Part shown: piece after piece, positions 5,445-20,845 of the stretch
How positions within the stretch are numbered: position 1 is the first letter of the stretch
Layout of the letters: each line of letters opens with the position of its first letter
DNA from: Alicyclobacillus sp. SO9
GTDB taxonomy: Bacteria > Bacillota > Bacilli > Alicyclobacillales > Alicyclobacillaceae
DNA length: 64,000 nucleotides
NCBI RefSeq assembly: GCF_016406125.1
Contig: NZ_CP066339.1
Location: forward strand, 4,278,001-4,342,000
Reading direction: 5' to 3'
Translations under genes and position numbers: made by a program
Notes under the pieces: model-generated
Databases searched by the model: none
What the model was told of the DNA's origin: nothing
The model's input: the letters and a program-made list of their open reading frames with translations, nothing else

Positions 5445-7244
5445 TTAAACGAGTGTGCCTGAAGACGTGTTGCGTAGTTGGATTGCCTTGGCAGGAAGCG
5501 GGATACCCAGTGCCTTGAGGACCTCGCTTAGGTTCTGTGGTGGCGGTGGAACGCTGAGGAATTCTTTCCCGAGAAACTCGGCTTTCATCACGTGCCAACG
5601 CGAGAGGTCTTTCATGATTCGCTCGCCTGTGTACCAACGGTCATTCAGTTCCTCCAGCCGTTGCTCGCGCTCGTCTGCGTTGGTCATCTGCTCTGCTTCT
5701 TGCTCTTGCTGCGCCCACCCACGTCGGTACATCACTTGGATCTCTTGCTCGAACAGATAGGCAAGTACGCAGACGAAGATGTGCCCGCGCACACGTTTTT
5801 CATTCCAGTGGTACACCGGCCCTACATCCAGGAAGTTCTTGATCTCTCGAAAAGCCCGCTCTACGTTCATCAACGTTTTGTAGGAAGTAACCACCTGTTC
5901 GGCAGGGAGCAACGTGTTGGTCTTAATCACAAACTTTCCGTCGCGTAAGGCTTCTTTGGCGAGGGCCGCCTCATTCCATGTGTAGGAGAGCTTCTGTTCA
6001 CTGAACTCCACCTCAAGGAACCCCTGTACACCTTTTTTGGTGAGGATGTCACTGACTTTGAGCATGATGGACTGTGTACTTGCTTTTCGCCCGCGATGGG
6101 GCTTGTCCAACCACGTCTGGTAGTCCACCAATGCCTGTTCCGCTTCCTCCAATGCCGATGTGCGGAAGGCTTCATCCGCCTTCGCCTTCAGCGGATTGTA
6201 GCAGAGAATATAGCGCGCATCTTGCCCTTTCTCATCGTCTTCCACTGCAGATGCGGGCACTTCGAGATAGCTGAGATTTCCGCGCAGCTCAGTGTAGAGA
6301 GAGAGGTCACCGTACTGTGCCAATAAGGTGTCGCTAACCACGCGGCCACGTTTGTGGTAGCCCACAATATAGGGATACTCAAGCGCCGCCAACAACTCCG
6401 TGTTCTTTTTCGTGACCATACCGCGGTCTCCGACGAACACACATTGTTCAACGGAGAAGTCTTTCTTCAAACGCTCCAGAACTTCCTTGACGGTCTTTTT
6501 GTCCGGCGTGTTTCCCGCAAAGACTTCATGGGTAATTGGCAACCCATCCGGAGTCACAAGCAGACCCAGCTCGACCTGTTCCAGGTCCGGCCTGTGGGTT
6601 CGTGAATATCCATGCTTGCCAATTGGGCAGTGGTGGCCACTGAGGTGCGTACTGGTCAGGTCATAGAGTACAAGCGATAAACGAAAGTTCAAGAGGTCCG
6701 TGAGTCGTTGATAGATAAATGTCTCCAGTTCGGGCTTCATATCCATCAGGTGATCCAGCGCACGATAGAAATGTTGCAACTGCCAGGATTCACCTTCCTC
6801 CTCCGGAAGATACATGTCCTCAATCGTATGAAACAAATCCAACTTACTAGACGGATTCATCAAACGGTTACAGACCATGGCCTTTACATAGCGAGCTACG
6901 TCAAAGGTGACCTGACGGTCTTTGAGTCCGGTCTCTATCGCCTTGGTCAACCCAAGCTGATCCCACAAAAATTGAACCACGTAGGGAACGCCAAAAGAGA
7001 GGGTCGACTTGGGGTCAAAGTCCTCAATCGAACCAGAGGTACGGTTCTGTAGGAGCGATTCAAGGGTACGAATAAACTGCTCAATCTCTTGCTCAGAGTA
7101 GTTATCGATGTTACCAAGACTGGCAATCCGACGCTTTTTAACGGTTTTTCCCTCGCGATAGGACTCAACAATATGCATATACCTGTAGGTACGACCATCG
7201 GGGCGTTTTGTGGATACAACTTGTGCGAACACTGGGCTCACCAC
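5445..7244 (-). CDS. IS1634-family DDE transposase
   Basis: A 599-residue transposase of the IS4/IS1634 group. The N-terminus has the characteristic ESYREGKTVKKRRIASLG segment. The RNase H-like core shows the first acidic residue in LVLYDLTSTHLSG, the second in CVFVGDRGMVTKKN, and the third in the NVERAFREIKNFLDVGPVYH block, which matches the late Glu motif of the family. Family members are about 500-600 residues, so it looks full-length and probably active. It lies inside dctP on the opposite strand. Confidence 0.92.
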   Translation of the reverse strand: MVSPVFAQVVSTKRPDGRTYRYMHIVESYREGKTVKKRRIASLGNIDNYSEQEIEQFIRTLESLLQNRTSGSIEDFDPKSTLSFGVPYVVQFLWDQLGLTKAIETGLKDRQVTFDVARYVKAMVCNRLMNPSSKLDLFHTIEDMYLPEEEGESWQLQHFYRALDHLMDMKPELETFIYQRLTDLLNFRLSLVLYDLTSTHLSGHHCPIGKHGYSRTHRPDLEQVELGLLVTPDGLPITHEVFAGNTPDKKTVKEVLERLKKDFSVEQCVFVGDRGMVTKKNTELLAALEYPYIVGYHKRGRVVSDTLLAQYGDLSLYTELRGNLSYLEVPASAVEDDEKGQDARYILCYNPLKAKADEAFRTSALEEAEQALVDYQTWLDKPHRGRKASTQSIMLKVSDILTKKGVQGFLEVEFSEQKLSYTWNEAALAKEALRDGKFVIKTNTLLPAEQVVTSYKTLMNVERAFREIKNFLDVGPVYHWNEKRVRGHIFVCVLAYLFEQEIQVMYRRGWAQQEQEAEQMTNADEREQRLEELNDRWYTGERIMKDLSRWHVMKAEFLGKEFLSVPPPPQNLSEVLKALGIPLPAKAIQLRNTSSGTLV

Positions 7245-7369
7245 CGCTCATAATATTACCTACAATTATACAATATAAATACTTTTATAACAAGGAAAAA
7301 GTTATCCACTGTCCAAACACATTTTGACCTACATTTTTGAGCTCAAAACACAACTTATCAACAGAAAAA

Positions 7370-7385
7370 CCGCGCAACGGCGCGG
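7370..7385 (-). terminator. Terminator guarding the upstream end of the IS
   Basis: CCGCGC (7370-7375), loop AACG, GCGCGG (7380-7385). Read on the minus strand the hairpin is followed by TTTTTCTGTT, a proper intrinsic terminator. It would stop transcription entering the element towards the transposase, a known way for insertion sequences to limit activation by outside promoters. Confidence 0.6.
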
Positions 7386-7436
7386 CTTCGGGATACTGAT
7401 AACCTACTTTTCCACAGCTAAACTGTCAAAGATGAG

Positions 7437-7442
7437 GTGGAA
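7437..7442. repeat. Target site duplication of the IS1634-family element, right copy
   Basis: Second GTGGAA copy, adjoining the right inverted repeat and continuing into the displaced 3' end of dctP. Confidence 0.9.
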
Positions 7443-7503
7443 AAGCGTATTAAAGCATGCTCCAGACTATGGACTTAAAATCAAGAAGGCACTAGGACAG
7501 TAG
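7443..7503 (+). pseudogene. Displaced 3' end of dctP
   Basis: After removal of the element the frame continues from the AW of the 5' fragment as KSVLKHAPDYGLKIKKALGQ and stops at TAG 7501-7503. This is a typical DctP C-terminal helix. It has no start or ribosome binding site of its own and is not translated separately. It ends 37 bases before dctQ, which shows that dctP, dctQ and dctM originally formed one operon. Confidence 0.85.
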
Positions 7504-7540
7504 AAGAACCACCAAAATTGGACTTGGATGTGGTGCCAAC

Positions 7541-8047
7541 ATGAAAGTAGTTTTTGAAAAGGTAGTCATGCTAAACGAACGTATTGCGAAATACCTTACT
7601 CTCATTGCAGGAATTATTATCATGGCTCTAATGTTCACAATTACAATTTCCGCCTTATCGAGACACTTTCTCGACAGACCAATGGCGTGGGTCACGGATA
7701 CCAGTACCTATGCATTATTATTCGTGACATTCCTCGGCGCCCCCTTGCTGGCTGTGGAGAATCGACATATTAACGTAGAAATGCTACCAGCTTCCCTTGG
7801 CAGACGGGGGAAGGCCGTCGTCCAGTTCGTTACGAACTTAGTCTCTTTTGCAATGAGCCTAATCATTGCGTGGTTCGCACTGAAGACGACTTTGCAGGCG
7901 TACACAGAACATGAAGTGGATACAAATATCCTAGCAACTCCCATGTACTTACTTTTTGGAATTATTGTTGTCGGGGCACTTTTTATGGCGTTCAGCTTCC
8001 TGATAAATGCTCTGCAGCCGTCGCGAAACAGCAAAGATAAACAATAA
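7541..8047 (+). CDS. TRAP transporter small permease, DctQ
   Basis: A 168-residue membrane protein with about four transmembrane segments and the DctQ-type features SALSRHFLDRPMAWVTDTSTYALLFVTFLGAPLLAVENRHINVE. It forms the small membrane subunit that joins the binding protein to the large channel in a TRAP carboxylate importer. The ATG at 7541 is used, but the ribosome site is weak; ATG 7568, with AAAGG upstream, is an alternative. It now lies just behind the IS, so its transcription may depend on a promoter in or near the element. Confidence 0.9.
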   Translation: MKVVFEKVVMLNERIAKYLTLIAGIIIMALMFTITISALSRHFLDRPMAWVTDTSTYALLFVTFLGAPLLAVENRHINVEMLPASLGRRGKAVVQFVTNLVSFAMSLIIAWFALKTTLQAYTEHEVDTNILATPMYLLFGIIVVGALFMAFSFLINALQPSRNSKDKQ

Positions 8048-8064
8048 CAAGGGAGGTGTGTCCG

Positions 8065-9369
8065 TTGGTATGGTGGTTAATTGCCATATTGTTTTTTGGA
8101 GGACTTCTGCTTGCCATTTTCAGCAGTCTCCCTATTGCAATTGGCTTCTTCCTGGTAGTTACAATTGGGATGCACTTCGTTATGGGACCTCAATTTGGCC
8201 ACGACTTAATCCGAAGTATTTTTGCATCATTAACCAACGTCGAATTGACGCCCATCCCTATGTTTGTGTTAATGGGAGAATTTCTGTTTAACTCAGGGGT
8301 TGCGCTGAAGGCACTTAATACAATTGAGAAATGGCTTGGCAGGTTACCTGGACGGCTCAGTGTATTAAGCATCGTATCCGGAGCACTGTTCGCCAGCTTA
8401 AGCGGATCTACTATTGCAAACACGGCTATGCTAGGTTCGCTTTTAACTCCGGAAATGAGGCGAAAGAAGTATCACAAGAGTATGATTATCGGTCCAATTG
8501 TTGCATCTGGAAGTCTAGCAATGATGATTCCTCCAAGTTCGCTTACCGTTGTCTTCGGAAGTCTTGCAAAAATATCCGTTGGAGACCTGCTTGTAGCAGG
8601 AATTCTTCCCGGTCTTGTAATGGCCGGACTTTACGTTGTCTATACAATTGTACGTTGTCTCACAAACCCCGCTCTTGCTCCGGCTTACAATGTCGAAAAA
8701 CACTCTGTTAAAGACACATGGTTTGATACGCTAAAATACGTTCTTCCACTGGCATCCGTTGTCCTACTCACAGTCGGGGTCATCTTCTGGGGGATTGCCA
8801 CACCTACAGAAGCTGCCTCATTTGGTACACTTGCATCACTCCTTCTGGCTTTCATTATGGGAAACTTCACACTTCAAGGATTGGAGAAGTCGATTTTCGG
8901 ATCAGTTCGTATCACGTCTATGATACTAGTTATTATAGCGGCCTCTACGGCCTTCAGCCAAGTTTTAGCATTTAGTGGTGCGACAACGCACTTACTGCAA
9001 TTAGTGACAAAACTACCGTTTGGCCCTATAGGCTTTCTTGTCGCCATGCTGACAGTCGTATTTATCCTTGGAATGTTTGTCGAAGAAGTGTCCATCATGA
9101 TGATTACTCTACCCATATTTATGCCTGTCGTTTCAGCTGCGCACATAAATCCGATTTGGTTCGGAATCCTGTATCTGCTAATTCTCGAAATTGCAATGCT
9201 GACACCGCCGGTTGGACTGTTGCTCTACACGATTAAGGGAGTCACTCCGGCTGAGATAACAATGAATGACATCTGGAAGGCAGCTTTTCCCTATGTTCTA
9301 TGCGGGTTGGTGGCAGTAATCATCGTATTGAAGTTCCCAGTCATAGCTACACTGGCGGTTCACCCTTAA
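8065..9369 (+). CDS. TRAP transporter large permease, DctM
   Basis: The large channel subunit, 434 residues, with about 12 hydrophobic segments. Diagnostic stretches are SGSTIANTAMLGSLLTPEM, the re-entrant loop GPIVASGSLAMMIPPSS, and IWFGILYLLILEIAMLTPPVGL near the C-terminus. The start is taken as TTG 8065 because GGGAGG at 8051-8056 is 8 bases upstream; the in-frame GTG at 8056 overlaps that site. It couples Na+ or H+ flow to uptake of an organic acid presented by DctP. Its last 23 bases overlap secF tail to tail. Confidence 0.94.
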   Translation: MVWWLIAILFFGGLLLAIFSSLPIAIGFFLVVTIGMHFVMGPQFGHDLIRSIFASLTNVELTPIPMFVLMGEFLFNSGVALKALNTIEKWLGRLPGRLSVLSIVSGALFASLSGSTIANTAMLGSLLTPEMRRKKYHKSMIIGPIVASGSLAMMIPPSSLTVVFGSLAKISVGDLLVAGILPGLVMAGLYVVYTIVRCLTNPALAPAYNVEKHSVKDTWFDTLKYVLPLASVVLLTVGVIFWGIATPTEAASFGTLASLLLAFIMGNFTLQGLEKSIFGSVRITSMILVIIAASTAFSQVLAFSGATTHLLQLVTKLPFGPIGFLVAMLTVVFILGMFVEEVSIMMITLPIFMPVVSAAHINPIWFGILYLLILEIAMLTPPVGLLLYTIKGVTPAEITMNDIWKAAFPYVLCGLVAVIIVLKFPVIATLAVHP

Positions 9370-10222
9370 GAGAATGTCCGCGCCAAGCTACCCACAAAGG
9401 ACTGGCAATGAAAATGGAACTGTAGGTTCCGCTTATAAGTCCCACGATGAGCGCCATGGTAAAGTTGTGTATGGTCGGGCCGCCAAAGAAAAATAAGGCG
9501 AAAGCTGCAATCAAAACAGTACTAACTGTGTTCAGCGAACGTCGCATCGTTTGCCTCAAGCTCACATCAGCTATTTGTTCCAGTTGTTCGGCTGTCTCCG
9601 GTTTTGTCAACTGCAAATTCTCCCGAATTCTATCAAATATCACAATCGTATCATTGATGGAGTAGCCAACAATAGTTAAAATTGCAGTCACAAACAGCAT
9701 GTTAATTTCAATGCGAAATAGTGCAAAGAAGGACATGACAATAAATGCATCGTGAAGAAGTGCGACAATTCCGGAGACGGCAAACCTGAATTCAAAGCGT
9801 ATTCCCACGTACACCATAATAAACACAGAGGCAAATAACACGGCAAGAATCGCTTTATGTGACATGACCTTTGCCTCTAACGGATTCACCGTATCAATTT
9901 GCGTGTTCTTCCAGTGCTGTTTTATTTGCGATACCTGTTGCGTATCCATTACTTCCGGCAGTCTTACAATGGTCAACTGATGTACTGAGGAACCGCCGTA
10001 CGTAATCTCCTGGGGTTTTACGTGGATGCCTGTACCAGCAAACACACGCTGAACTTGGACTGTCGACATGGCACTCTTAAGCTGAATACGAGACCCAGAC
10101 TTGAAGTCCGGTCCAAGATTAAAGCCATGCACTGTAAAGACAACTAGTCCGGCTAACGTAATAATTGAAGACAGTAAAAAAAACCATGCACGTCGCTTCA
10201 CAATATGAAATCTCCCAGTCAT
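9347..10222 (-). CDS. secF: Protein translocase subunit SecF
   Basis: A 291-residue inner-membrane subunit that, with SecD, uses the proton-motive force to help pull secreted proteins out of SecYEG. Six transmembrane segments surround the P1 extracytoplasmic domain. Landmarks are FNLGPDFKSGSRIQLK after the first helix, ALLHDAFIVMSFFALFRIEIN, VGYSINDTIVIFDRIREN and LIVGLISGTYSSIFIASPLW. The ATG overlaps the secD stop in an ATGA, so the two are translationally coupled. Many Bacilli have a fused SecDF; here they are separate. Confidence 0.96.
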   Translation of the reverse strand: MTGRFHIVKRRAWFFLLSSIITLAGLVVFTVHGFNLGPDFKSGSRIQLKSAMSTVQVQRVFAGTGIHVKPQEITYGGSSVHQLTIVRLPEVMDTQQVSQIKQHWKNTQIDTVNPLEAKVMSHKAILAVLFASVFIMVYVGIRFEFRFAVSGIVALLHDAFIVMSFFALFRIEINMLFVTAILTIVGYSINDTIVIFDRIRENLQLTKPETAEQLEQIADVSLRQTMRRSLNTVSTVLIAAFALFFFGGPTIHNFTMALIVGLISGTYSSIFIASPLWVAWRGHSLKGEPPV

Positions 10223-11517
10223 GATTTTGCACCCTCTCCCCCGAACCCAAACCAGTTGGATTTGCGCAAGATCTTGGACTTTGCAAGGTGCAGCAGCATA
10301 GTTCGGCCGAGAAAGACAGCAGTCAGAAGACTCGTGCCAATACTTAGCATCAAAGCGACAGCAAAGCCCTTAATGGCGCCGCTGCCGACTATGTACATGA
10401 CGGCTCCTGCAATAAAGGTGGTGACATTCGAATCCATGATGGGGCGTAATGCTCGCCGGTTTCCAGAAATTATGCTCGATATTAGACTCTTACCAGTGCG
10501 AAGTTCATCACGTATGCGTTCATTTGTAATAATGTTTGCGTCCACAGCCATCCCCAGACCCAGTACCAAAGCCGCGAGACCCGGCAGCGTCAGGACAATG
10601 CCCAGTCCGTCGAACAAAGCCAGAGTAACAAATGCATAGGCTATTAGCCCCACGTTAGCAATCAATCCGGCTGTGCGATAAATGAGCATCATAAACAGAA
10701 AGATAAGAACCACAGCGAGAGTAGCTGCAAAAACCGTCGCGTCCAGCGACGCCTGACCAAGAGATGGTCCAACTGTTGTAGAGCTAATCAGCTTTAATGG
10801 ATACGGCAGGGCTCCCGCATTTAACTCTTTCGCGAGAACAATACACTCCTGCTTGGTCATGCCTGTAATCACGGTCTTACCATTGGGTATAATTTCGTGG
10901 ATAGTAGCGTAGTTGACCATTTTCGAACCGAGAAAAGTATACACAGGATGATGCAAGTAAGTCGTGGTAATGTTCCTCCATTGTATCGGATCTTTAAAAG
11001 TCACAGAGACGACATTCCCCTGTTGGGGGAACTGTTCCCAAGACGCGTTACTCTTCAAGTCGCTGCCTGTCACAAGGAGCTTCCCACTCGGAATAACCTT
11101 GCTTTGAGGCAAAGCAGCATTGAAACTCGTATACGGTACTATAGTGCCGCTCTTTTCCTTGATTTTCGCGTTGGAATAGATTTTCAGCTGAGATGTGTGG
11201 CCAATTATGGCGTTTGCCTGTTGAGCGCTGTACGCTCCCGCAAGTTGTACATTCACCTGATTTCCATTTTCCAACTCAATGTTTGGAGAGCCAATTCCTG
11301 CGGCGTTGACACGCAGTTGAACTGCTTGTAGAACAGCTTGCTTATCCGTCCTACTGAGCAACTTCCCATGTGAATCAATTTGGTACAACAAGTCATATCC
11401 TCCACGCAAGTCTAGACCTAGTTTCGTGTGTTTCCAAAACGCCGGTGCTGTGCTCATAGTGATTCCAAGAACGAACATCACAACAGCAAGAAACGAGAAC
11501 AAATGCCTCCATTTCAT
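10219..11517 (-). CDS. secD: Protein translocase subunit SecD
   Basis: Membrane translocase subunit of 432 residues. It contains the conserved LGLDLRGGYDLLYQ motif after the first helix, a large extracytoplasmic domain, GLGMAVDANIITNERIRDELR and the C-terminal helices. The start is set to ATG 11517 because GGAGG is 6 bases upstream; an open frame extends to 11604 without support. It acts with SecF (ATGA overlap) in protein export. The nearby sigma/anti-sigma pair may sense envelope state, but no regulatory link is visible. Confidence 0.96.
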   Translation of the reverse strand: MKWRHLFSFLAVVMFVLGITMSTAPAFWKHTKLGLDLRGGYDLLYQIDSHGKLLSRTDKQAVLQAVQLRVNAAGIGSPNIELENGNQVNVQLAGAYSAQQANAIIGHTSQLKIYSNAKIKEKSGTIVPYTSFNAALPQSKVIPSGKLLVTGSDLKSNASWEQFPQQGNVVSVTFKDPIQWRNITTTYLHHPVYTFLGSKMVNYATIHEIIPNGKTVITGMTKQECIVLAKELNAGALPYPLKLISSTTVGPSLGQASLDATVFAATLAVVLIFLFMMLIYRTAGLIANVGLIAYAFVTLALFDGLGIVLTLPGLAALVLGLGMAVDANIITNERIRDELRTGKSLISSIISGNRRALRPIMDSNVTTFIAGAVMYIVGSGAIKGFAVALMLSIGTSLLTAVFLGRTMLLHLAKSKILRKSNWFGFGGEGAKS

Positions 11518-11651
11518 AGGACGCCTCCGTGTAAGCGAGTTTTTGGCCATGACAAAGAGCCCTGCAGCGGCACAAACCTCTACAAGCAGCGAGATCTCAG
11601 TCATTCAAGCTTTGAAATATATTCTCAATGCATCACTGTGTTGAAAGGTAT

Positions 11652-12062
11652 TTAGCTGGATGCGCTGTATTGGGTCCTGCGATGATCAATAGGGTAAAGA
11701 CTCATGGTAAGGTTCTTTTGAATGGGATTCGCGCCAGCGGCCAAAACCGCTGTAAGTGCAGCCGCGGGAACAACAGAACTTATAGATACTTCGATAGCTG
11801 TAATTGCCTCACGGTGGTTCTTGGGTGAATGCCCCATCAGCAAAGCGGCGAAAGTCATTATTGTCGCAATTGCAATCGCAACAAAAGCCCATAGATGAGT
11901 TCGCGAACGCACGGGTTGATGAACACTACTGTCCTCTAACTGAATTGCTTCAATAATGCTGTCTTCCAACTGTCGTGACATCTTGATATCCTTCATAACG
12001 GTCATTTCAGCGGCTGGTTTAAGCCTTGTTAAGGACTGTTCGAGGTTGGATTCGTTCTTCAT
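11652..12062 (-). CDS. Small single-pass membrane protein, putative anti-sigma factor
   Basis: A 136-residue protein with a cytoplasmic N-terminal part of about 55 residues, one clear transmembrane helix (LWAFVAIAIATIMTFAALLM) and a short outer part. The gene overlaps the preceding sigma-factor gene by 44 bases and has its own AAAGGAGT site. That arrangement is the classic ECF sigma/anti-sigma layout, so it probably tethers and inhibits that sigma factor. I see no recognisable zinc-binding anti-sigma motif (HxxxCxxC), so the assignment rests on context and topology. Confidence 0.65.
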   Translation of the reverse strand: MKNESNLEQSLTRLKPAAEMTVMKDIKMSRQLEDSIIEAIQLEDSSVHQPVRSRTHLWAFVAIAIATIMTFAALLMGHSPKNHREAITAIEVSISSVVPAAALTAVLAAGANPIQKNLTMSLYPIDHRRTQYSASS

Positions 12063-12561
12063 GTTCCCTGCACTCCTTTCCCTGCTTCAGCGCCTTTCTC
12101 GCTCTGAAGAGCCTCACTTTCACGGTGCTCACAGTGACACCTAAAATCTTCGCAATCTCTGCAGTAGGTCTTTCCTCATAATAATGAAGAACAATGACTT
12201 CTCTCAGCGTAATGGGAAGTTGCAGTACCAGTGTCACGAGTTCTTGGTCGGTTGACCTTTGAATGGCCTCCGTCTCTGCGGAAGGGCTCCAGTCAGTCGT
12301 AGGTACACGATCTACCAATATCTGCGGATGCCGTTTGTTCGTTCGATAGTAGTTTCTGCATACATTCACTGCTATCTGCATTAACCAGGTTTTGGGCTGG
12401 CACTGGTTGCGGAATGTGCTTCGGTTTCGATGAGCACGGAGAAAAACTTCCTGCGTTAGGTCTTCTGCGTCATTGCTGCTCTTCGTATAGAACCTAATGA
12501 ACCTCAGAACATCAGTGCCGTATGTTTTCAGTAATTCCTCCGTTGATTGTTCAAGAGTCAT
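12019..12561 (-). CDS. ECF-type RNA polymerase sigma factor
   Basis: About 180 residues. Region 2 is seen in DVLRFIRFYTKSSNDAEDLTQEVFLRAHRN and the following KTWLMQIAVNVCRNYYR; region 4 in LPITLREVIVLHYYEERPTAEIAKILGVTVSTVKVRLFRARKAL (shown as the family helix-turn-helix). Region 3 is absent, as expected for group 4 sigma factors. ATG 12561 is favoured, with AGGTG upstream; a GTG at 12573 is possible. It directs a dedicated regulon when released from the membrane protein encoded next to it. A TGTAACC element at 12610-12616 (minus strand) could be part of a self-recognised promoter. Confidence 0.93.
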   Translation of the reverse strand: MTLEQSTEELLKTYGTDVLRFIRFYTKSSNDAEDLTQEVFLRAHRNRSTFRNQCQPKTWLMQIAVNVCRNYYRTNKRHPQILVDRVPTTDWSPSAETEAIQRSTDQELVTLVLQLPITLREVIVLHYYEERPTAEIAKILGVTVSTVKVRLFRARKALKQGKECREHEERIQPRTVLNKA

Positions 12562-12777
12562 CAGTTCGTTCACCTGCCTTCACCTATTTAGACACCAGAC
12601 ACGCGTTCCGGTTACATATTAGGAAAGGATTCGTCAAGGTAGACCTTATCACAAGAAATGTCCGGGAGTCGTGTTTGAAAAGAACAACGTTTCTTCTGAA
12701 TTCTCGTCGCATAAAGAAGCAGTATTTACGAAATACCAACTCTAGGTGATGGATAAGAGCGAGAGGGAGGCTTCAGA
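12562..12777. other. Divergent promoter region, sigma factor / oxidoreductase
   Basis: No gene seen. On the minus strand a TGTAACC box (12610-12616) resembles the -35 of ECF promoters and may serve autoregulation of the sigma gene, but a matching -10 is not clear. The remainder shows nothing recognisable. Confidence 0.35.
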
Positions 12778-12806
12778 TTGCTAAGTTTTTCTTAAAGAAC
12801 TACAAT
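12778..12806 (+). promoter_or_regulatory. Promoter of the candidate selenoprotein gene
   Basis: TTGCTA at 12778-12783 and TACAAT at 12801-12806 with 17-base spacing. An 11-base palindrome TTCTTAAAGAA (12789-12799) sits in the spacer and could be an operator. The start codon follows about 60 bases downstream of the expected transcript start. Confidence 0.6.
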
Positions 12807-12874
12807 AATGAGTGAATCTAAATACCCCTATGGGTTTAAAGATTTAACACTGCAGGAGATAAGGAGTTGAGATT

Positions 12875-13528
12875 TTGCCCCAAATTGAGGAAAGTGATAA
12901 GCAAGCAATTAAAAACTTGTTTGCACACAAAATGGAAGGCACTGCACACATTCGCTTCTTCACTTCCAAAGCAAACTGTCAGTATTGTGAAGACACATTG
13001 GATATCTTAAACCAGCTTGCACAGTTGTCAGACAAAATTGACTTGCAGGTATTTGACAAAGATGCGAACGCAGACGAAGCTCGCCAATTTGGAGTCAACA
13101 TGTACCCTGCCATTGTATTTGTAAATGATAATGGCCACGATACTGGCGTACACTTTTATGGGATTCCGTCTGGGTATGAATTTAGCACATTGATTGAGGA
13201 TATTGTCGATGTCGCCAATAATCATACTGACTTGTCTCCAGAAACAATTGACGTTCTAAAACAGATTAATACGGACGTCACTCTCTCCGTTTTTATCACA
13301 CCGACCTGACCTTATTGCCCCCGCGCAGTTCGCGTGGCTCACCACATGGCAATGATTAATCCTCATATTAAAGGAGAAATGATTGAAGCCATGGAATTTC
13401 CAGAACTATCAAACAAACACAACGTAATGGGCGTACCAAAGACCGTTATTAATGACGGTAAGGCGGAACAGGAGGGCGCTGTGCCCGAAGACGTTATTTT
13501 AGCCAAAATTCAAGAATCTCTACAATAA
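12875..13528 (+). CDS. Two-domain thioredoxin-fold oxidoreductase (PDO-like), candidate selenoprotein with in-frame UGA at codon 145
   Basis: The frame starts at TTG 12875 behind AAGGAG and encodes 217 residues if TGA 13307-13309 is read through, the usual size of protein disulfide oxidoreductase/glutaredoxin-like proteins. Domain 1 has ANCQYCED (CxxC). Domain 2 reads VFITPT-[UGA]-PYCPRAVRVAHHM and then the typical MEFPELSNKHNVMGVPKTVI and EGAVPEDVILAKIQ. The UGA falls exactly on the first, reactive Cys of the second CxxC, giving UxxC. No frame change is needed. A GC-rich hairpin follows the UGA (13317-13338). Selenocysteine insertion is the best explanation; a nonsense mutation of a TGC/TGT codon or a sequencing error is the alternative. 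The protein would act as a cytoplasmic thiol reductase or peroxide-defence partner. Confidence 0.8.
13307..13338 (+). promoter_or_regulatory. Recoding site: UGA codon with downstream SECIS-like hairpin
   Basis: UGA at 13307-13309. Seven bases later a stem begins: GCC (13317-13319) pairs with GGC (13336-13338), then CGCG (13322-13325) pairs with CGCG (13331-13334), with a small internal bulge and the loop CAGTT starting 16 bases after the UGA. Position and size fit bacterial SECIS elements, which lie within the coding region just 3' of the UGA and bind SelB. The fold is by eye only. Confidence 0.55.
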
Positions 13529-13542
13529 CTGTAAAACTAAAA

Positions 13543-13572
13543 GCGGGCATTCACCGGACTGGTAATGCTCGC
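13543..13572 (+). terminator. Hairpin after the oxidoreductase gene
   Basis: GCGGGCATT-c-ACC (13543-13555) pairs with GGTAATGCTCGC (13561-13572): 12 pairs with one bulge and a GGACT loop. A T-run occurs only about 15 bases further on, so it is a plausible but not ideal intrinsic terminator. Confidence 0.5.
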
Positions 13573-13574
13573 CC

Positions 13575-13964
13575 TCTGATATTGTGATTTTTTACCACTG
13601 ACATGATGTCAGCGTAAAAGGAGACCCTTAGGCCTCCCCACGGTTACTTTGACAGTATCCTTGTAGAAACCTCAAAACAGAGTACTATCGCAGTACTACA
13701 GCATTCAACGCAACCATCTATCCAAACTGCTGATGCACCATGCAGGCATCGCATTTTCTAGCAAAATCACTGCGATGTACAGTCCCGTGTATCGCAGATT
13801 ACACGCCCCAGTTTTTATAGAGCAGCCCTCTATATGGACTATTCTCGGTGTGCCGGACTTCAGTTTTCTCCTGGCATCCCCTTTTTCAAAGGATTGTCTT
13901 AATCATAGTAAACGACGACTTACTAACAGGAGCTCACATCGTCACACTATTTAATGTCCTAATA
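13575..13964. other. Convergent intergenic region without gene
   Basis: About 390 bases between the oxidoreductase (plus) and the sugar permease (minus). Short open frames here have no ribosome sites or recognisable sequence. No clear terminator for the sugar ABC operon was identified. Confidence 0.4.
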
Positions 13965-14837
13965 CTACCTTCCAAAGCCAGCAAGCATTCCCGCACGAAG
14001 ATATTTCCCTGCAAAAATATACGCAAAAATTAGAGGTAATGCAGAAAAAATGACAGCTGCCATCGTTACAGGCACGTTGATAGAATGTTGCCCCTGAAAC
14101 TGCACAATAGCCAAGGGAAGAACCTGAACAGCCTTACTCTGAGTGAGTACCAATGGAAACAAAAAGTTATTCCACGCCTGAATAAATTCGAAGATACCGA
14201 TGGAAACCAACGCCGGTTTGGACAAGGGAGTTACAAGGTGCCATAGTACTTGAAAATCGGAGGCTCCTTCAAGCCCCATTGATTCGAACAGCTCAGAAGG
14301 TATGTCTCGGACAAAGTTGACAAGAATGAGCAATGTAAGCGGCAAACCAAACGCAACCGTTGGAAGTATCATTCCGATAAGGGTGTTATACAGGCCCAGT
14401 TTTAGTATTAGGAGATAAACTGGTATTATTGCTGCCTGAATTGGCAGCGCTAAACCGACCAAAAAGACATTAAAGATTGTTCGGACTACCTTGTTTGTAG
14501 AACGCACGATAACATACGCCAGTGCGAGTGCAAATGCAACAATCAAGACTACAGAAGTGACGGATACCACCACACTATTGAGAAAGTAGTGGAAAAATCC
14601 GGCCTGCAAAACCTGACTATAGTTACTCAAGGTGGGGTGGAGCGGTGGTAGCCAAGGCTTACCCACAAGGTAGCCATTTTGATGTTTCAAACTTGTCATC
14701 AACATGTACAGCAAGGGATAGCCGGCAATGATAAGCCATATAGTGCCAAAGACCGTAAAAGCTATTCCGTAGCCAGAGACTTTGCTGCGACGCTTGGTAG
14801 ATTTCATCGGCTGTTGCGTAACTCCTGTCGTTCCCAT
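13965..14837 (-). CDS. Carbohydrate ABC transporter permease (MalG/UgpE type)
   Basis: A 290-residue inner-membrane permease with six transmembrane segments. The cytoplasmic EAA loop is EGASDFQVLWHLVTPLSKPALVSIGIFEFIQAWNNFLFPLVL (shown as the family motif), which contacts the ATPase. The C-terminus (AGKYLRAGMLAGFGR) is like that of MalG-type subunits. It is the last gene of a binding protein-permease-permease operon, 5 bases behind the first permease. No ATPase gene is present locally, so the system probably shares an MsmK-type ATPase encoded elsewhere, as is common for sugar importers in Firmicutes. Confidence 0.94.
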   Translation of the reverse strand: MGTTGVTQQPMKSTKRRSKVSGYGIAFTVFGTIWLIIAGYPLLYMLMTSLKHQNGYLVGKPWLPPLHPTLSNYSQVLQAGFFHYFLNSVVVSVTSVVLIVAFALALAYVIVRSTNKVVRTIFNVFLVGLALPIQAAIIPVYLLILKLGLYNTLIGMILPTVAFGLPLTLLILVNFVRDIPSELFESMGLEGASDFQVLWHLVTPLSKPALVSIGIFEFIQAWNNFLFPLVLTQSKAVQVLPLAIVQFQGQHSINVPVTMAAVIFSALPLIFAYIFAGKYLRAGMLAGFGR

Positions 14838-14842
14838 AGCGA

Positions 14843-15736
14843 TTACGAACCCTCCATCTGACTTTCCATCTTAGTGAAGCCAGTAAACTTGAGAATAACA
14901 ATTGACAAAAGTAACCCAAAGACGGCAAGAATGACCGCAATAACGCTGCCGGCGCCAATGTTTAGACTATGAAACGCTTCTTTGTACATATACATCGCTA
15001 GCACATTAGTGGAATCTCCAGGACCACCGTTAGTGACCACGTAGATTAAATCGAAATAAGTAAGCGTACCCGTTAAAATTAGAACGGTCGTCGTAACAAT
15101 CGTATACTTTAATTGAGGTAAAGTAATCCTAAAGAAGGTTTGAATAGGGTTTGCTCCGTCTAACATGGCAGCCTCATAAAGAGAGTCAGGTATCTGTCTT
15201 ACTCCACTCTGATAGAGAAGGGAATTGAATGGAATAAATTGCCAAGCTATAATACAAGCCACAACTAACATAGCTATGTGGGGGTTTCCTATCCAATTTT
15301 CCGCGCCATTGCCAATGCCAATAGATTTTAGCACAGAATCCAGTAATCCGAATTCCGGGTCAAGGATGTATGACCACGTGACACCAATGGCTACAGCAGA
15401 AAATAGGAGCGGGATAAAGAAAATCACTCCGTAAACGACACGGTGTCTCTTCTTACCTGCCATAAATACTCCCAATACAAGACTAAGCGGATTCTGTAGA
15501 ATCCAGCACAATACCATCAATTCAATGGTAAGCCAAAGGGAATGCAAGGCCTGCCCGTCCGAAAACGCGTGTGTCCAGTTTTGAACTCCCACCCATTGAG
15601 CATGGCCAACACCGCTCCAATTTAGCCCGCTGTAATAAACGGCAACGAACATTGGCACCAGCGCAAAGACTCCAAAAAAAATAACGGCCGGCAACATCAT
15701 CAGCCAGCGTTGCCAATTCATGCGTGCCCCCGACAT
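14843..15736 (-). CDS. Sugar ABC transporter permease (MalF/UgpA type)
   Basis: A 297-residue permease with six membrane helices. It has the EAA loop EAAMLDGANPIQTFFRITLPQLK and the downstream TLTYFDLIYVVTNGGPGDSTNVLAMYMYKEAF characteristic of MalF-like subunits. GGAGT precedes the ATG at 15736. It pairs with the next permease to form the translocation pore. The gene is separated from the binding-protein gene by a strong hairpin. Confidence 0.94.
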   Translation of the reverse strand: MSGARMNWQRWLMMLPAVIFFGVFALVPMFVAVYYSGLNWSGVGHAQWVGVQNWTHAFSDGQALHSLWLTIELMVLCWILQNPLSLVLGVFMAGKKRHRVVYGVIFFIPLLFSAVAIGVTWSYILDPEFGLLDSVLKSIGIGNGAENWIGNPHIAMLVVACIIAWQFIPFNSLLYQSGVRQIPDSLYEAAMLDGANPIQTFFRITLPQLKYTIVTTTVLILTGTLTYFDLIYVVTNGGPGDSTNVLAMYMYKEAFHSLNIGAGSVIAVILAVFGLLLSIVILKFTGFTKMESQMEGS

Positions 15737-15760
15737 CTAAGTCACTCCTTACACAAGATA

Positions 15761-15796
15761 AGGTGACCAGGAGGCACCGTGCCTTCCTGGTCACCT
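15761..15796 (-). terminator. Intercistronic hairpin between binding protein and permease genes
   Basis: AGGTGACCAGGA (15761-15772) pairs perfectly with TCCTGGTCACCT (15785-15796), with a further inner GGCA/TGCC. It lies between the binding-protein stop and the permease start. Such hairpins protect the upstream message or partly terminate it, so that more binding protein than permease is made. The trailing sequence on the minus strand (TTATCTTG) is a poor T-run, favouring a partial terminator or mRNA stabiliser. Confidence 0.6.
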
Positions 15797-15800
15797 CCTA

Positions 15801-17159
15801 TCATTTAGATGCTTTCTTCAACTGAGTATTCATATCCGATTCAAATTTACTGATTGTCATTTGGCCAACCATGAGTTTTCCAAGGTCGCTATCCAGCTGA
15901 TTTCCTTCAGCAGCAGACAGGGCCGTGTCCCAGGACTGTTGGAAGTACGGTGCGTTCGATGCCAAATTATAATAGAAAGTTTCATAGGAGGAACTCTTGG
16001 ATTGCTGAAGTTTGGATTTAATTCCCTTTATGCCAGGCACATAGCCGATGTTCAAGTAGTTTTTCACATTCTGCGAGTTCAGGTTGTAGTTTTTCAAGAA
16101 ATTGACCGCAGCCTTAACCTGTGACTTGCTTGCAGAGGTCGGAATAGAATAGTAGTTACTTGGGTTACCAGCAACATCCTTCGGATTACCCTTTCCTCCG
16201 GAAATTGCCGGGAAGGGAAACCATCCTAGTTGAGAAATGAAACTCTTATCGTTGGCTTCTATGGCGCCATATCCCCAACTTCCCATTAACCACATGGCAG
16301 CTTTACCACCATAAAGCAGAGCCGAGTCGGAACCATCGTTGGAGCCGACAGAGCTTAGTCCAGGCTCGAAGGCTCCGGCCTTCTTAAGATTCAGCATCAT
16401 CTGCAGCGCCTTAGTAATCGTCGGATTAGACCAGGCATTGGCTTTTCCTGCCGCGACATTTTTATAGGGTTGTTGACCTCCCAAGCGGTCAACAATGTAC
16501 TCAAAATACATCAAATCCGGCCAGTTATCCTTACCCCCGAGAGAAATAGGAATTACACCGTGGGACTTGAACACCTGCACGTCGGATAGCAATTCCTTCC
16601 ACGTTGTGGGCGGTGTCAAATTATACTTCTTAAACAGCTTCTTGTTGTAAAAGAAGTTCACGGGCTGCATGTTGCCGTAAGGAATACCGTAGACCTTGCC
16701 GTTAAATGTAACCGACTTCATAACGGACGGAAGAAATTTGTTCTTCCAAGACGGGTCTGCATTTAGATAAGGGGTTAAGTCAACCACATCACCCGGAGTA
16801 ATGTAGTTTTCCAAGCGACCCCCTCCCCAGTTACCGAAGATGGTAGCAGCGTTGTGAGCGCCCATGGCGATCTGTAGTTTTTGCAAATACGGATTAGATT
16901 GGAAGAACTGTGCTGTTATCTTGGCTTTAGGATTTTCGCTGTTGTACTGCGCTACCAGCTTTTTATCTACCTTTTCAGCCGCTCCACTATCAACGTTCCA
17001 GAGCGTCAGGGACGTTTTACCCCCGGAAGAGGTCCCACTACTATTACCGCCGCTGTTGCTTGCCGAACCTCCAGACCCACATCCTACAACCAGAGTAGCT
17101 GCCGTAATAGCGCTTACAGCAACCACAGAAATACGGCTAGATTTTTTCACATTTTTCAC
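15801..17159 (-). CDS. Extracellular sugar-binding lipoprotein of ABC transporter
   Basis: A 452-residue substrate-binding protein, family 1. The N-terminus has a signal with the lipobox LVVGC, then a Gly/Ser-rich linker, then the binding fold with the phrases SLTLWNVDSGAAEKVDKKLVA, KVYGIPYGNMQPVNFFYNKKLF and GGKAAMWLMGSWGYGAIEA. These are typical for MalE/oligosaccharide-binding proteins (COG1653). It is anchored on the outer face of the membrane and delivers a sugar to the two permeases that follow. The sugar is not predictable. A good promoter lies just upstream. Confidence 0.94.
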   Translation of the reverse strand: MKNVKKSSRISVVAVSAITAATLVVGCGSGGSASNSGGNSSGTSSGGKTSLTLWNVDSGAAEKVDKKLVAQYNSENPKAKITAQFFQSNPYLQKLQIAMGAHNAATIFGNWGGGRLENYITPGDVVDLTPYLNADPSWKNKFLPSVMKSVTFNGKVYGIPYGNMQPVNFFYNKKLFKKYNLTPPTTWKELLSDVQVFKSHGVIPISLGGKDNWPDLMYFEYIVDRLGGQQPYKNVAAGKANAWSNPTITKALQMMLNLKKAGAFEPGLSSVGSNDGSDSALLYGGKAAMWLMGSWGYGAIEANDKSFISQLGWFPFPAISGGKGNPKDVAGNPSNYYSIPTSASKSQVKAAVNFLKNYNLNSQNVKNYLNIGYVPGIKGIKSKLQQSKSSSYETFYYNLASNAPYFQQSWDTALSAAEGNQLDSDLGKLMVGQMTISKFESDMNTQLKKASK

Positions 17160-17197
17160 CCCTATTAATATGTTGGGCTAACCAATAAACTAATTGC

Positions 17198-17226
17198 ATT
17201 TTATATCTTTCCTATGTGCATGTCAA
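17198..17226 (-). promoter_or_regulatory. Sigma-A promoter of the sugar ABC operon
   Basis: On the minus strand, perfect TTGACA (17221-17226), 17-base spacer, TAAAAT (17198-17203), then a leader of about 30 bases to the ATG at 17159 with a GGGGTGA ribosome site. No cre or regulator palindrome is evident close by. Confidence 0.75.
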
Positions 17227-17561
17227 CGCGATGTCCTAACCACAGCGCGTTTGAATGCAAATCACTCCGAAAAATCGCAAGATTTATATATAATGTCCAA
17301 AAAGTCAATGTAATACAGTCTTTGATGCTCATACAAATGTGCCAACACCAATGTTCGTGTACATGCTCCATGTCGGTTTTCCAAGACTGCTGGAAGGAGC
17401 TATTTCATGAAAGAAAGTCCCTGTTCCCTCACAAGTTCATTCAAGATATACATAATCCCTCAACAAATTAACGCAGTAAAATTGATTTTATGTTGAGATA
17501 GAATAGTGAATCAGTCCAATCTAAAAACGAAAATTCAGCCCTAAAATCCAGTCTTGAAATT
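17227..17561. other. Intergenic DNA between sugar ABC promoter and IS256-family element
   Basis: AT-rich, no supported gene; an 85-codon plus-strand frame at 17214-17471 has no ribosome site and an unconvincing composition. Before the IS entered, this region together with 19076-19238 was one divergent intergenic spacer of about 0.5 kb. Confidence 0.4.
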
Positions 17562-17570
17562 CACTTAATG
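17562..17570. repeat. Target site duplication of IS256-family element, left copy
   Basis: CACTTAATG, repeated exactly at 19067-19075; 9 bp, the expected size for IS256-family elements (8-9 bp). Confidence 0.88.
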
Positions 17571-17623
17571 ATGAAGTAAAATTGTTTGTGTAGGAGAATT
17601 TGGATCCTTCTCAGATAACAAAA

Positions 17624-17673
17624 AGGTAGGGTATCCTCGGGATTGCGACATCACCAGAAAGGAAGCCCTACCT
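17624..17673 (+). promoter_or_regulatory. Inverted repeat abutting the transposase start codon
   Basis: AGGTAGGG (17624-17631) pairs with CCCTACCT (17666-17673), the latter ending at the base before the ATG. The ribosome site GAAAGGAAG lies in the loop. On a read-through transcript from outside, this stem could hinder translation of the transposase; this is inference from position. Confidence 0.45.
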
Positions 17674-18870
17674 ATGGATAGTGTACATGAACAGAGTATT
17701 GGAGATCTAATGGAAAATCTCGTGAAAGGCTTTGTTAAGGAAAAACTCGAGTTTATCATGCGAGAAGAAATTGAGCATTTCCTGAATGTGGAGTATGAGG
17801 GGCGCCGCCCGAGTAGAAATGGTTACTATGGTCGCTCCTTACAAACGCGGTATGGCGAGATAGAGGACCTACAGGTTCCCCGAGACCGTAAGGACGCCTT
17901 TCAGACTCAGTTGTTTGAGCCATACCAACGCCGGGAAGGTTGGCTAGAAGAGGCTGTCATTCACATGTATAAAGGCGGTATGAGTACCCGGGATGTCGCG
18001 AAATTTATCGAAGGGATGTTTGGCACAGAGTACTCGCCAACGACCATCAGTAATATCACAAAGACCGTTTTGGAAGATGTAGAAGAATGGCAGCAGCGTC
18101 CGTTAGAAAAGCGTTATTCGGTCATCTACCTAGATGGCATCTACATCAAGTTAAAACGTACTACGGTGGACAGCGAAGTCGTCTACCTGGCGATGGGTAT
18201 CAACGAAGACGGATACCGACAAATACTCGGCTTCTACGTGGGCGGCAAAGAAAGTGCCAACGGTTGGAAGGACGTGCTCAAGGACCTATACAACCGTGGA
18301 GTACACGAAGTGTTACTGGGTGTATTTGATGGGCTCCCTGGTCTCGAAGAAGCCTTTCGAGAAATCTATTCAAAGGCTGACGTTCAGCACTGCGTCGTAC
18401 ATAAAGTGCGAAGTACCTTCCCAAAAATCCGAGTCGGTGACAAGACGGAATTTCTCAGTGATCTCAAAACGGTGTACACCGCACCAGACAAGGACTTGGC
18501 CGTAGCTGCGTTCGACACCGTCAAAGATAAGTGGGGGAAAAAGTATTCGAAAGAAATTCAGTCCTGGGAAGGCCAACTTTCAACGCTCCTGACGTTTTAC
18601 AAATATCCGAAGCTGATTCGTCACGCAATCTATACTTCAAATGCCATCGAGCGGACGAACAAAGAACTTCGCAAACGTTTTAGACCGATGAACAGCTTAA
18701 CAAATATGGACGCTGCTGAGAAAATTATCTATCTGGAGGTCACAGCGTACAACGAGAAATGGAGTACCAGGGTCATCCGAGGCTTTGGCGATGAGGAAAC
18801 AAAAGCCGGGCTACAGCGAATGTATGAAGAGCGTTACCCAGCTGTCTCCGAGACTCTCGACAAGGAATAA
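17674..18870 (+). CDS. IS256-family transposase
   Basis: A 398-residue mutator-type DDE transposase. Catalytic positions are visible: Asp in YLDGIYIKLKRT, Asp in GVFDGLPGLEEAF and Glu in TSNAIERTNKELRKRFRPM. The N-terminal DNA-binding part has REEIEHFLNVEYEGRRPSRNGYYGR, and PTTISNITKTVLEDVEEW is also family-typical. The length matches the family (about 390-410), so it is probably functional. Confidence 0.95.
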   Translation: MDSVHEQSIGDLMENLVKGFVKEKLEFIMREEIEHFLNVEYEGRRPSRNGYYGRSLQTRYGEIEDLQVPRDRKDAFQTQLFEPYQRREGWLEEAVIHMYKGGMSTRDVAKFIEGMFGTEYSPTTISNITKTVLEDVEEWQQRPLEKRYSVIYLDGIYIKLKRTTVDSEVVYLAMGINEDGYRQILGFYVGGKESANGWKDVLKDLYNRGVHEVLLGVFDGLPGLEEAFREIYSKADVQHCVVHKVRSTFPKIRVGDKTEFLSDLKTVYTAPDKDLAVAAFDTVKDKWGKKYSKEIQSWEGQLSTLLTFYKYPKLIRHAIYTSNAIERTNKELRKRFRPMNSLTNMDAAEKIIYLEVTAYNEKWSTRVIRGFGDEETKAGLQRMYEERYPAVSETLDKE

Positions 18871-18960
18871 TTATCCAAAATAATTCCGAGACAGTCCAGC
18901 AATTCAACAAGGATATTAGTTCTGAATATTCAATCCAAGAGGGATAAAGTTCTAATTTTC

Positions 18961-18980
18961 GGTGGGGGGTACCCCCCACC
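18961..18980. repeat. Perfect 20-bp palindrome near the right end of the IS
   Basis: GGTGGGGGGT joined directly to ACCCCCCACC. It lies about 90 bases after the transposase stop, inside the element. It may end the transposase transcript or be a structural end feature; there is no T-run after it on the plus strand. Confidence 0.5.
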
Positions 18981-19066
18981 TACCAAAACAAACCAAATAA
19001 TGATGTTATCCATCTTCGATGGATAACCCTACTGAAAAGAAATTACACAAACTTCTTGACACTACC

Positions 19067-19075
19067 CACTTAATG
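19067..19075. repeat. Target site duplication of IS256-family element, right copy
   Basis: Second CACTTAATG copy, directly after the right end of the element. Confidence 0.88.
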
Positions 19076-19238
19076 GTAGCCGCTTCTCTTTTTGCTAAGA
19101 GAATCTTTACAACTCCCATATAAAAAATTAACGGTTTATATATTTTCTCTTAACAAACGCTCACTATAGTACGAATCGAAAGATATCCTACACCTGACCC
19201 CCAATTTGTAGGAAATACTTCGAGAGGAATAGACTTAC

Positions 19239-19964
19239 ATGAGGCAGTACAAAGGAATCTTTTTTGATTTAGGTTACACCCTGGTCCGAACAGACAGAGA
19301 ACTCTCAATGCAAAAGCGCATGATGCAACTACAGATTGACTGCTCCCTTCTTGAATTAGAGCATGCCTACCACGCAACAGACAAGTACTATATGCAACAC
19401 CAGCCTGGACTCTTGGCCTTAGACTCTCGTCGCTTTTTCCCAAATTATATCCGTCGTGTAGCAGATTACCTTGGTCTCCAACTCGCGGATAAAGAGTTAG
19501 ACCACCTTGCACGAGTTGACGACGGCCGAGGTGTGTGGTCGTTGATTCCAGGAGTCCAGGACGGACTCAAAACACTTCGAGACTCGGGACTTCATGTGGG
19601 CCTTATTTCAAATTGGGATGAGAGCGCCCGTCCTTTGTTGCAGCGGCTGAAACTGGAGGATCTGTTTGAGAGTATCATCATTTCCTCTGAAATCGGCATG
19701 CAAAAGCCAAATCCAGACATCTTCCTTACTGCTCTGAAACACGCAGGCATTACAGCAGAGTCCGCCTTATACGTCGGAGACAACTACTATGACGATGTCG
19801 TTGGAGCACGTAAGGCTGGTCTAGACGCTGTGCTCATCAATCGCTTTGGAAAGTTAGGAATCGAAGACATTCAAGACTGTCAGATCTATGAATCAGTCAC
19901 GCAGGTGATTGACTCTGTTTTGTCGCATGCAGCGCAACCGGCTCACGGGAGGGCGACACCATGA
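19239..19964 (+). CDS. HAD family hydrolase (subfamily IA)
   Basis: A 241-residue haloacid dehalogenase-like hydrolase. Motif I is FFDLGYTLVRTD, with the nucleophile Asp present but Gly in place of the usual second Asp (DxD), which weakens the case for a plain phosphatase. Motif II is VGLISNWDES; motif III/IV is MQKPNPDIF and ALYVGDNYYDDVVGARKAGLDAVLI. It is the first gene of a seven-gene run with an RpiR regulator and an oligopeptide-type importer; its stop overlaps the regulator start (ATGA). It probably dephosphorylates or otherwise processes the imported compound, but the substrate is unknown. Confidence 0.88.
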   Translation: MRQYKGIFFDLGYTLVRTDRELSMQKRMMQLQIDCSLLELEHAYHATDKYYMQHQPGLLALDSRRFFPNYIRRVADYLGLQLADKELDHLARVDDGRGVWSLIPGVQDGLKTLRDSGLHVGLISNWDESARPLLQRLKLEDLFESIIISSEIGMQKPNPDIFLTALKHAGITAESALYVGDNYYDDVVGARKAGLDAVLINRFGKLGIEDIQDCQIYESVTQVIDSVLSHAAQPAHGRATP

Positions 19965-20845
19965 CTTTGACACGAACTCCCGCAGAGCTCCCAATCACTG
20001 AAGATCCCCTGCGTCTTCTTCTCGATAACGCCAGGTCCAAGTTGACACCCAGTCAGAAGAAACTGGCGGACTTACTGCGACATGACGCAACCATTCTGGC
20101 TTTTGAACCAGCGCTCCATGTGGGCAAACGAGTTGGTGTCAGTGAAGCCACGGTTCACAGATTCGCTTTACAACTTGGTTTTGCTTCTTTCTCCCATCTG
20201 CAAAAGTTCGCGCAAAATGTATTTTCAAAGGGTCGAACGGTATCACGGTTGAGGAGAGTGGCTGATAACCAAGTGCAAGGGAGCAATACCCTCGAACATA
20301 CAATCGAAGTCGATGTATTAAACCTGCAAGATACACTCGCATCTGTCAGTGAGGAAAGCATTGACCAAGGTGCCGCGATGATTGCAAAGGCGAGGCGGAT
20401 TTACGTAGCCGGATGGAGAGCAGGACTGGCAGTCACAGCCAGTTTAAATTATTCCCTGAATCTGATGCTCGGGAATTCCACCCTCTTGCCAATGCACGGA
20501 GGGCTGTACGAATCAATGCTGACCATGAACGCTAGCGATGTGTTCATTGCAATGGGTTTTCCCCGATACTGCGAGACCACTTTAGAAGCCATGGAGCAGG
20601 CAGTCGCCAATGGGGCAAAGACAATAGCGATTACGGATGTTGCCACATCGCCATTTCTTCCTCTCAGCGATGTTGTTTATTTGGTTCCGTCATACTCAGC
20701 AGGATTTCTTGATTCCTATGTTGCACCGCTGTCCCTGACCAGCGCCATTATCACAAAAGTGAGTTTACTGCGAGAAGACGATGTCATGAGCAATTTGAAA
20801 AAACTTGAGAAGTTAATACGATATGTGGGAGATGAGACAGAATGA
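19961..20845 (+). CDS. MurR/RpiR family transcriptional regulator
   Basis: A 294-residue regulator. The N-terminal helix-turn-helix of the RpiR type covers roughly residues 20-95 (TPSQKKLADLLRHDATILAF; VGVSEATVHRFALQLGFASF). A C-terminal SIS domain follows (RRIYVAGWRAGLAVTASLNY; SDVFIAMGFPRYCETTLEAM). SIS domains bind phosphosugars, so the effector may be a sugar phosphate or amino-sugar derivative. ATGA overlaps on both sides tie it into the operon with the HAD gene and the binding protein, and it probably represses or activates this operon. Confidence 0.93.
   Translation: MTLTRTPAELPITEDPLRLLLDNARSKLTPSQKKLADLLRHDATILAFEPALHVGKRVGVSEATVHRFALQLGFASFSHLQKFAQNVFSKGRTVSRLRRVADNQVQGSNTLEHTIEVDVLNLQDTLASVSEESIDQGAAMIAKARRIYVAGWRAGLAVTASLNYSLNLMLGNSTLLPMHGGLYESMLTMNASDVFIAMGFPRYCETTLEAMEQAVANGAKTIAITDVATSPFLPLSDVVYLVPSYSAGFLDSYVAPLSLTSAIITKVSLLREDDVMSNLKKLEKLIRYVGDETE

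Follow-up and report, generated by a model that had tools for sequence, protein, structure and literature searches.

A predicted selenocysteine form of a protein disulfide oxidoreductase in Alicyclobacillus sp. SO9, with a SECIS-like hairpin beside its in-frame UGA codon

Introduction

Among the predicted selenoprotein families named in extracts from two reviews (PMC13188914, 2026; PMC9312934, 2022) is the 'Homolog of AhpF N-terminal domain (Grx-like domain protein)', which corresponds to the model TIGR02187 and bears a UxxC motif. The extract from the more recent review also mentions this selenoprotein family for Asgard archaea (PMC13188914), and a survey from 2006, likewise in extract, gives two selenocysteine (Sec) members, from Carboxydothermus hydrogenoformans and Symbiobacterium thermophilum (PMC1794560).

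Here we describe a gene for a protein disulfide oxidoreductase (PDO) with a predicted Sec residue, located within a 64,000-nucleotide stretch of the Alicyclobacillus sp. SO9 genome (hereafter the window). This Sec-PDO shares with the listed family its model, its UxxC motif and the use of Sec in place of Cys. It differs, as far as the table description allows a comparison without an alignment of the listed members, in that its genome holds one Cys copy and one Sec copy, and its lineage, which belongs to the same family group as Alicyclobacillus ferrooxydans, is not named in those extracts. Since TIGR02187 has previously been placed among the selenoprotein families, the gene is a new member and not a new family. 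Within the open-licence literature searched, the term 'TIGR02187' occurs only in PMC13188914 and PMC9312934, and 'Alicyclobacill' appears in the main text of neither. A search of titles and abstract openings in the same literature for selenocysteine in Alicyclobacillus yielded nothing on a Sec-PDO, and we found no published account there of a Sec-PDO in this lineage, of its two-copy state or of its lateral placement.

Results

An interrupted gene and its surroundings

The Sec-PDO gene (12875..13531, plus strand) would encode 217 residues from a TTG start to a TAA stop (13529-13531), an assignment based on translation, the TIGR02187 match, homologues and fold. The frame 12875-13528 contains a single internal stop, a TGA at 13307-13309 (plus strand) that corresponds to residue 145. 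A probable ribosome-binding site, AAGGAG, can be read directly from the sequence 8 bases 5' of the start (12861..12866, plus strand). The first active site, CQYC, comprises residues 35-38 (12977..12988, plus strand), with C35 and C38 nearly invariant among 13 aligned sequences. From the translation and homologue alignment, the TGA occupies position 1 of the second active site, UPYC, with the predicted Sec in place of the leading Cys of this CxxC. Open reading frame (ORF) calling with translation table 11 splits the gene into a first piece at 12875-13309 (144 aa) and an orphan at 13334-13528 (64 aa). This is the division into a truncated protein and a 64-residue orphan that the first-pass annotation had foreseen, and its claim that the same frame continues past the TGA to 13528 was borne out by the single internal stop and by family matches in both halves.

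On the 3' side of the gene, the inverted repeat GCGGGCATT/AATGCTCGC (13543..13572, plus strand) was noticed by eye as a possible terminator; its loop is 12 nt, and a T-run occurs only farther downstream. A terminator pattern scan found none and did not report this repeat, and a promoter scan gave a count no higher than in shuffled sequences. The gene stands alone in the window, flanked on one side by a divergently oriented gene for an ECF sigma factor (12019-12573, minus strand) and on the other by convergent genes from 13965 onwards (minus strand), which, going by their translations, we take to be an ABC-type sugar transporter set. When ORFs of at least 90 aa in window positions 6001-20000 were compared with 12.6 kb around the gene of L010, nothing matched besides the PDO. 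Elsewhere in the window there are 13 other TGA-interrupted frames with a simple C/U or U/C/S motif. Several of these lie within a repeat region (52833-62540, minus strand) that encodes a probable surface protein of 3235 aa, rich in tandem repeats of 210/420 and 324 bases, and frames of more than 400 aa are open on the opposite strand.

Family membership and fold

Each half of the gene alone matches a thioredoxin-fold Pfam family above that family's cut-off. With the TGA read as Cys, the joined frame scores 270.3 bits against the NCBIfam model TIGR02187, 'PDO_seleno_TRX' (cut-off 185), in a match that spans residues 6-214 and profile positions 2-208 of 209. These matches, together with a TGA at the identical codon in 22 other genomes, indicate that the interrupted frame is more than a chance arrangement.

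The translation, a structural model and its closest structural match agree on two thioredoxin-fold units, with CQYC as the redox site of the first and UPYC as that of the second. The AlphaFold2 model, built from 13 aligned sequences with Cys standing for Sec, has a mean pLDDT of 94.6 and a pTM of 0.92. The Foldseek top match is the Pyrococcus furiosus PDO 1a8l (TM 0.94, rmsd 1.7), which also ranks first in a profile search of PDB sequences (E 1.3e-72), so that the original 'PDO-like' label stands in both sequence and fold. The two proteins share tandem thioredoxin folds and CQYC in the first unit, at 39% identity, but the P. furiosus protein has Cys (CPYC) at its second site, where the window protein has Sec. 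The N-terminal domain of AhpF (PDB 1hyu, 4o5q, 5h29) has a double thioredoxin fold as well (TM 0.79-0.86 by query length), although AhpF carries a flavoprotein part that the window protein lacks. We rejected an identification as AhpF on two counts: the protein has just 217 residues, without a C-terminal flavoprotein disulfide reductase module, and it scores 103.8 bits against TIGR03140, for which the cut-off is 502.9. No signal peptide was seen by eye in the Sec-PDO, and the protein is probably cytosolic.

Selenocysteine machinery in the source genome

The source genome (5.29 Mb, two contigs, completeness 100) contains every component that the first-pass annotation had proposed to look for, each over its curated cut-off: selA (559 bits), selB (349 bits), selD (400 bits) and selC, the gene for tRNA-Sec (63.9 bits, cut-off 47), whose anticodon is TCA according to ARAGORN. 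Only matches over cut-off were counted, since control genomes without the pathway give weak matches to sel families below it. The SelD gene itself (G000:C1:3770106-3771035) has an in-frame TGA within SGUGCK, at what we take to be the usual Sec/Cys site of SelD. One of the four formate dehydrogenase matches over cut-off in this genome, an alpha subunit (G000:C1:3654414-3656426), has an in-frame TGA within CNRTUHAP. From these two TGA codons it appears that the genome probably carries at least two selenoprotein genes besides the Sec-PDO.

Sec and Cys forms among homologues

We searched with the protein against its own genome and 60 relatives. Matches were found in 45 of these 61 genomes, some of them weak and of AhpF type only, and 42 full-length PDO genes could be read. 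Codon 145 is TGA in 23 and TGC or TGT in 19, with no other codon among the 42. Each of the 23 TGA forms comes from a different genome, and the TGA always falls at the same codon within TPT-[U]-PYCP. A set of named loci comprised the best 80 of 589 relatives; 78 of these showed the motif pattern, all with TGA or TGY at this position, and of the 77 counted further here, three have TGA. The alignment check proposed at the outset thus returned Cys or TGA at codon 145 in the homologues examined. The 42 genes and 77 named loci together form a counted set of 119 sequences (26 Sec, 93 Cys). Left out of it were L061 (the gene of L010 again) and two loci in which no motif pattern was found (L079 and L100), and L065 is represented by one of its two PDO copies. 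One of the two peptide patterns behind the best 80 of 589 contains Cys, and the Sec:Cys ratio is therefore biased in favour of Cys and should not be read as a frequency. A plasmid search returned 89 records, all below 60% identity; among the 20 listed, the annotated features were AhpF or one thioredoxin-family protein.

SelB exceeds its cut-off in 31 of the 61 genomes, and 22 of these have a TGA form, three a Cys form only and six no full-length PDO. The 30 genomes without SelB over cut-off comprise one with a TGA form, ten with Cys only and 19 without a full-length PDO. The single exception (G052), the 23rd TGA genome, carries a fragment resembling SelB at the end of a contig. The three Cys-only genomes and the six without a full-length PDO show that SelB can be present without the Sec form. 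Both forms occur together in 6 of the 61 genomes, that of the window included. When 11 named genomes were tested, SelB was over cut-off in nine (Tepidibacillus/Bacillales/Halanaerobiales), with a Sec form at the locus seen in three and Cys forms in six, suggesting that Sec-competent genomes may also keep the Cys form. The other two, both Heimdallarchaeota, fell below a SelB cut-off that was apparently set for bacterial SelB.

Two genomes in this collection have further unusual features. In G055, the first-unit CxxC is lost from both PDO copies (L012/L059 and L045; NAEYG and NQEYG), one of which has Cys and the other Sec at the second site, and the second site would consequently work there without the first. 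In G050, a minus-strand frame (L060) about 2 kb from the Sec-PDO represents a second thioredoxin-like gene with an in-frame TGA at UPYC (VAFFSADWUPYCRR).

A SECIS-like hairpin that accompanies UGA

Scanning, folding and the comparison of UGA and Cys forms identify a bacterial SECIS-like hairpin, CCGCGC-AGUUC-GCGUGG (13321..13337, plus strand), which begins 11 bases 3' of the UGA and has a 6 bp stem and a 5-nt loop, AGUUC, with G at loop position 2. The loop lies 17 nt after the UGA, and the energy is -8.8 kcal/mol by simple scan and -9.5 by folding. The bSECIS model, as given in an extract of PMC13188914, specifies a loop of 3-9 nt, a stem of 4-16 bp, a G within the first two nucleotides of the loop, a spacing of 16-37 nt and an energy of at most -7.5 kcal/mol, and the window hairpin falls within these published values. 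No family in a Rfam search of 12500-13800 matches the hairpin, and nothing else relevant was found in that interval.

In the counted set, which includes loci from the best 80 of 589 relatives, 20 of 26 UGA forms fall within the bSECIS constraints versus 10 of 93 Cys forms, and at a spacing of 17-18 nt the counts are 20 of 26 versus 2 of 93; the remaining six UGA forms miss the -7.5 kcal/mol limit in the simple scan. In the same set, four core pairs (15-27, 16-26, 17-25 and 18-24, numbered from 0 at the U of UGA) all form in 25 of 26 UGA forms and in none of the 93 Cys forms. Two core pairs are seen as both G-C and C-G among UGA forms, although these swaps are confined to seven genes of the window clade and are tied to an Ala/Arg change, and may therefore represent one event. 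The CGCG run of that clade also permits a second pairing register, shifted by two, which the folding program prefers for the window. The sole UGA form with a broken core (L019, from G050) carries Ser (TCA) where the others carry Ala or Arg, and it may rely on a different hairpin.

The same region stands out in codon choice. Across codons +5 to +9 after the UGA, same-residue codon identity reaches 768/1035 (0.742) among the 23 UGA forms and 198/741 (0.267) among the 19 Cys forms, as against 0.399 and 0.446, respectively, over the remaining gene. These codons were picked after the folds had been inspected, so a scan over all five-codon stretches serves as the control; among UGA forms the stretch comes first of 213, and among Cys forms 201st of 202. 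For the window sequence by itself, the hairpin has only weak significance, with a shuffle z of -2.5 for the 50-mer from the UGA and -0.92 for another cut, and synonymous randomisation of the window sequence reaches the four core pairs in 30% of trials. Its strength lies in the comparison of UGA with Cys forms. On the other side of the UGA, the preceding Thr codon (13304-13306) is ACC in 22 of 23 UGA forms versus 5 of 19 Cys forms, a context preference left unexplained by the hairpin.

Selection beyond the UGA

Relative to L010 (81% identical), dN is 0.070 downstream versus 0.135 upstream of the UGA, with dS at 1.44 and 1.49, respectively (downstream pN 0.067, pS 0.640; upstream pN 0.124, pS 0.647). 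Two further comparisons, for which dS is saturated, run in the same direction, with pN at 0.095 downstream versus 0.223 upstream for L011 and 0.208 versus 0.315 for L045. These lower values after the UGA imply that the downstream part is constrained as protein. The decay that the first-pass annotation had named as a sign against Sec is thus replaced by purifying selection, stronger downstream than upstream.

Phylogenetic placement

In the tree of the 119 proteins (26 Sec, 93 Cys, with loci from the best 80 of 589 relatives), each Sec was entered as Cys, which keeps the trait from influencing the topology. At least five Cys/Sec changes are required, gains and losses counted together, with five forced by starred branches, versus a shuffled mean of 23.8. 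The window copy clusters with L010, L064 (an Alkalihalobacillus MAG), L062 (Tepidibacillus decaturensis), L063 and L011, and the nearest Cys relatives of this Sec clade in that set are L065 (a Tepidibacillus MAG) and Halanaerobiales. Its own genome's Cys paralogue (L046) sits in a separate starred clade, composed mainly of genomes of its own family. This placement suggests lateral gain, and we consider that the Sec copy was probably acquired in this way and kept alongside a vertically inherited Cys paralogue. An old duplication followed by losses may offer an alternative origin.

Past the PDO of T. decaturensis come selU (MnmH), at a distance of about 2 kb, and selB, whose near end is about 4.4 kb away. 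Small His-rich proteins, homologous to one another, are encoded ahead of the PDO at 5 of the 10 loci compared (L058, L062, L063, L064 and L065), and in Tepidibacillus and its relatives they stand immediately before Sec and Cys forms alike. The two scanned, from L062 (4460-4867) and L064, contain a Nitro_FeMo-Co domain (PF02579) and resemble NifX/MrpORP.

Discussion

The comparative evidence assembled here makes it almost certain, in our judgement, that the gene encodes a PDO of two thioredoxin units whose second site is UPYC, with Sec predicted to be inserted at the UGA through SelB, tRNA-Sec and the SECIS hairpin. The original proposal that codon 145 specifies Sec is thereby supported by the sel genes, by the alignment of TGA with Cys, by a hairpin conserved in UGA forms and by downstream selection.

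Three other accounts of the interrupted frame deserve consideration. Translation might simply stop at the UGA, as it does by default, to leave a functional 144-residue protein and an unread remainder. We regard this as very improbable given the purifying selection downstream (dN 0.070, dS 1.44), the continuation of family similarity to the C-terminus, where GVPKT and EGA.PE are invariant or nearly so in 13 sequences, and the presence of the sel machinery and two other probable selenoprotein genes. Slightly less credible still is a sequencing error or a recent nonsense mutation in an ordinary Cys PDO. One substitution suffices to convert TGC or TGT into TGA, and the intact Cys paralogue could make up for a pseudogene, but the same TGA recurs in 22 of the related genomes and 3 of 77 further named loci (from the best 80 of 589), the part after it is more conserved than the part before, and the hairpin accompanies TGA and not Cys. 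We give the least credence of all to a reading of the UGA as Trp or Cys through a suppressor tRNA or another genetic code. Nothing was found in favour of such decoding, and against it stand the tRNA-Sec with anticodon TCA, the Cys that aligns with the UGA and nearby genes that are open under table 11 (for example, ORFs of 461, 437 and 398 aa).

If Sec is put in at the UGA by SelB and tRNA-Sec with the aid of the hairpin, then what is known of thioredoxins suggests how the protein might work. The Sec selenolate would be the attacking group of the second site, electrons would pass through a selenenylsulfide between Sec145 and Cys148, and these could be exchanged with the first CxxC and with a partner resembling thioredoxin reductase. 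Protein or peroxiredoxin disulfides might then be reduced faster than by the Cys form, and Sec may in this sense be a catalytic upgrade of the second site. A more specific and rather unlikely possibility is that the window's Sec-PDO clade has a dedicated role in handling selenium, in which it would reduce selenenylsulfides or species derived from selenite on behalf of SelD, instead of being just a faster general oxidoreductase, and that it spread laterally to Alicyclobacillus-like genomes from a selenium-gene island such as that of T. decaturensis, where it follows a His-rich NifX/MrpORP-like protein near selU and selB.

The Sec-PDO offers a clean example of a gene that is split by an ordinary gene caller, and the homologues reported here add many Bacillota genomes to a family for which the extract of the 2006 survey gives two Sec members (PMC1794560). 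With at least five Cys/Sec changes on the tree and both forms present in 6 of 61 genomes, the family constitutes a natural test of the benefit of Sec at one active site.
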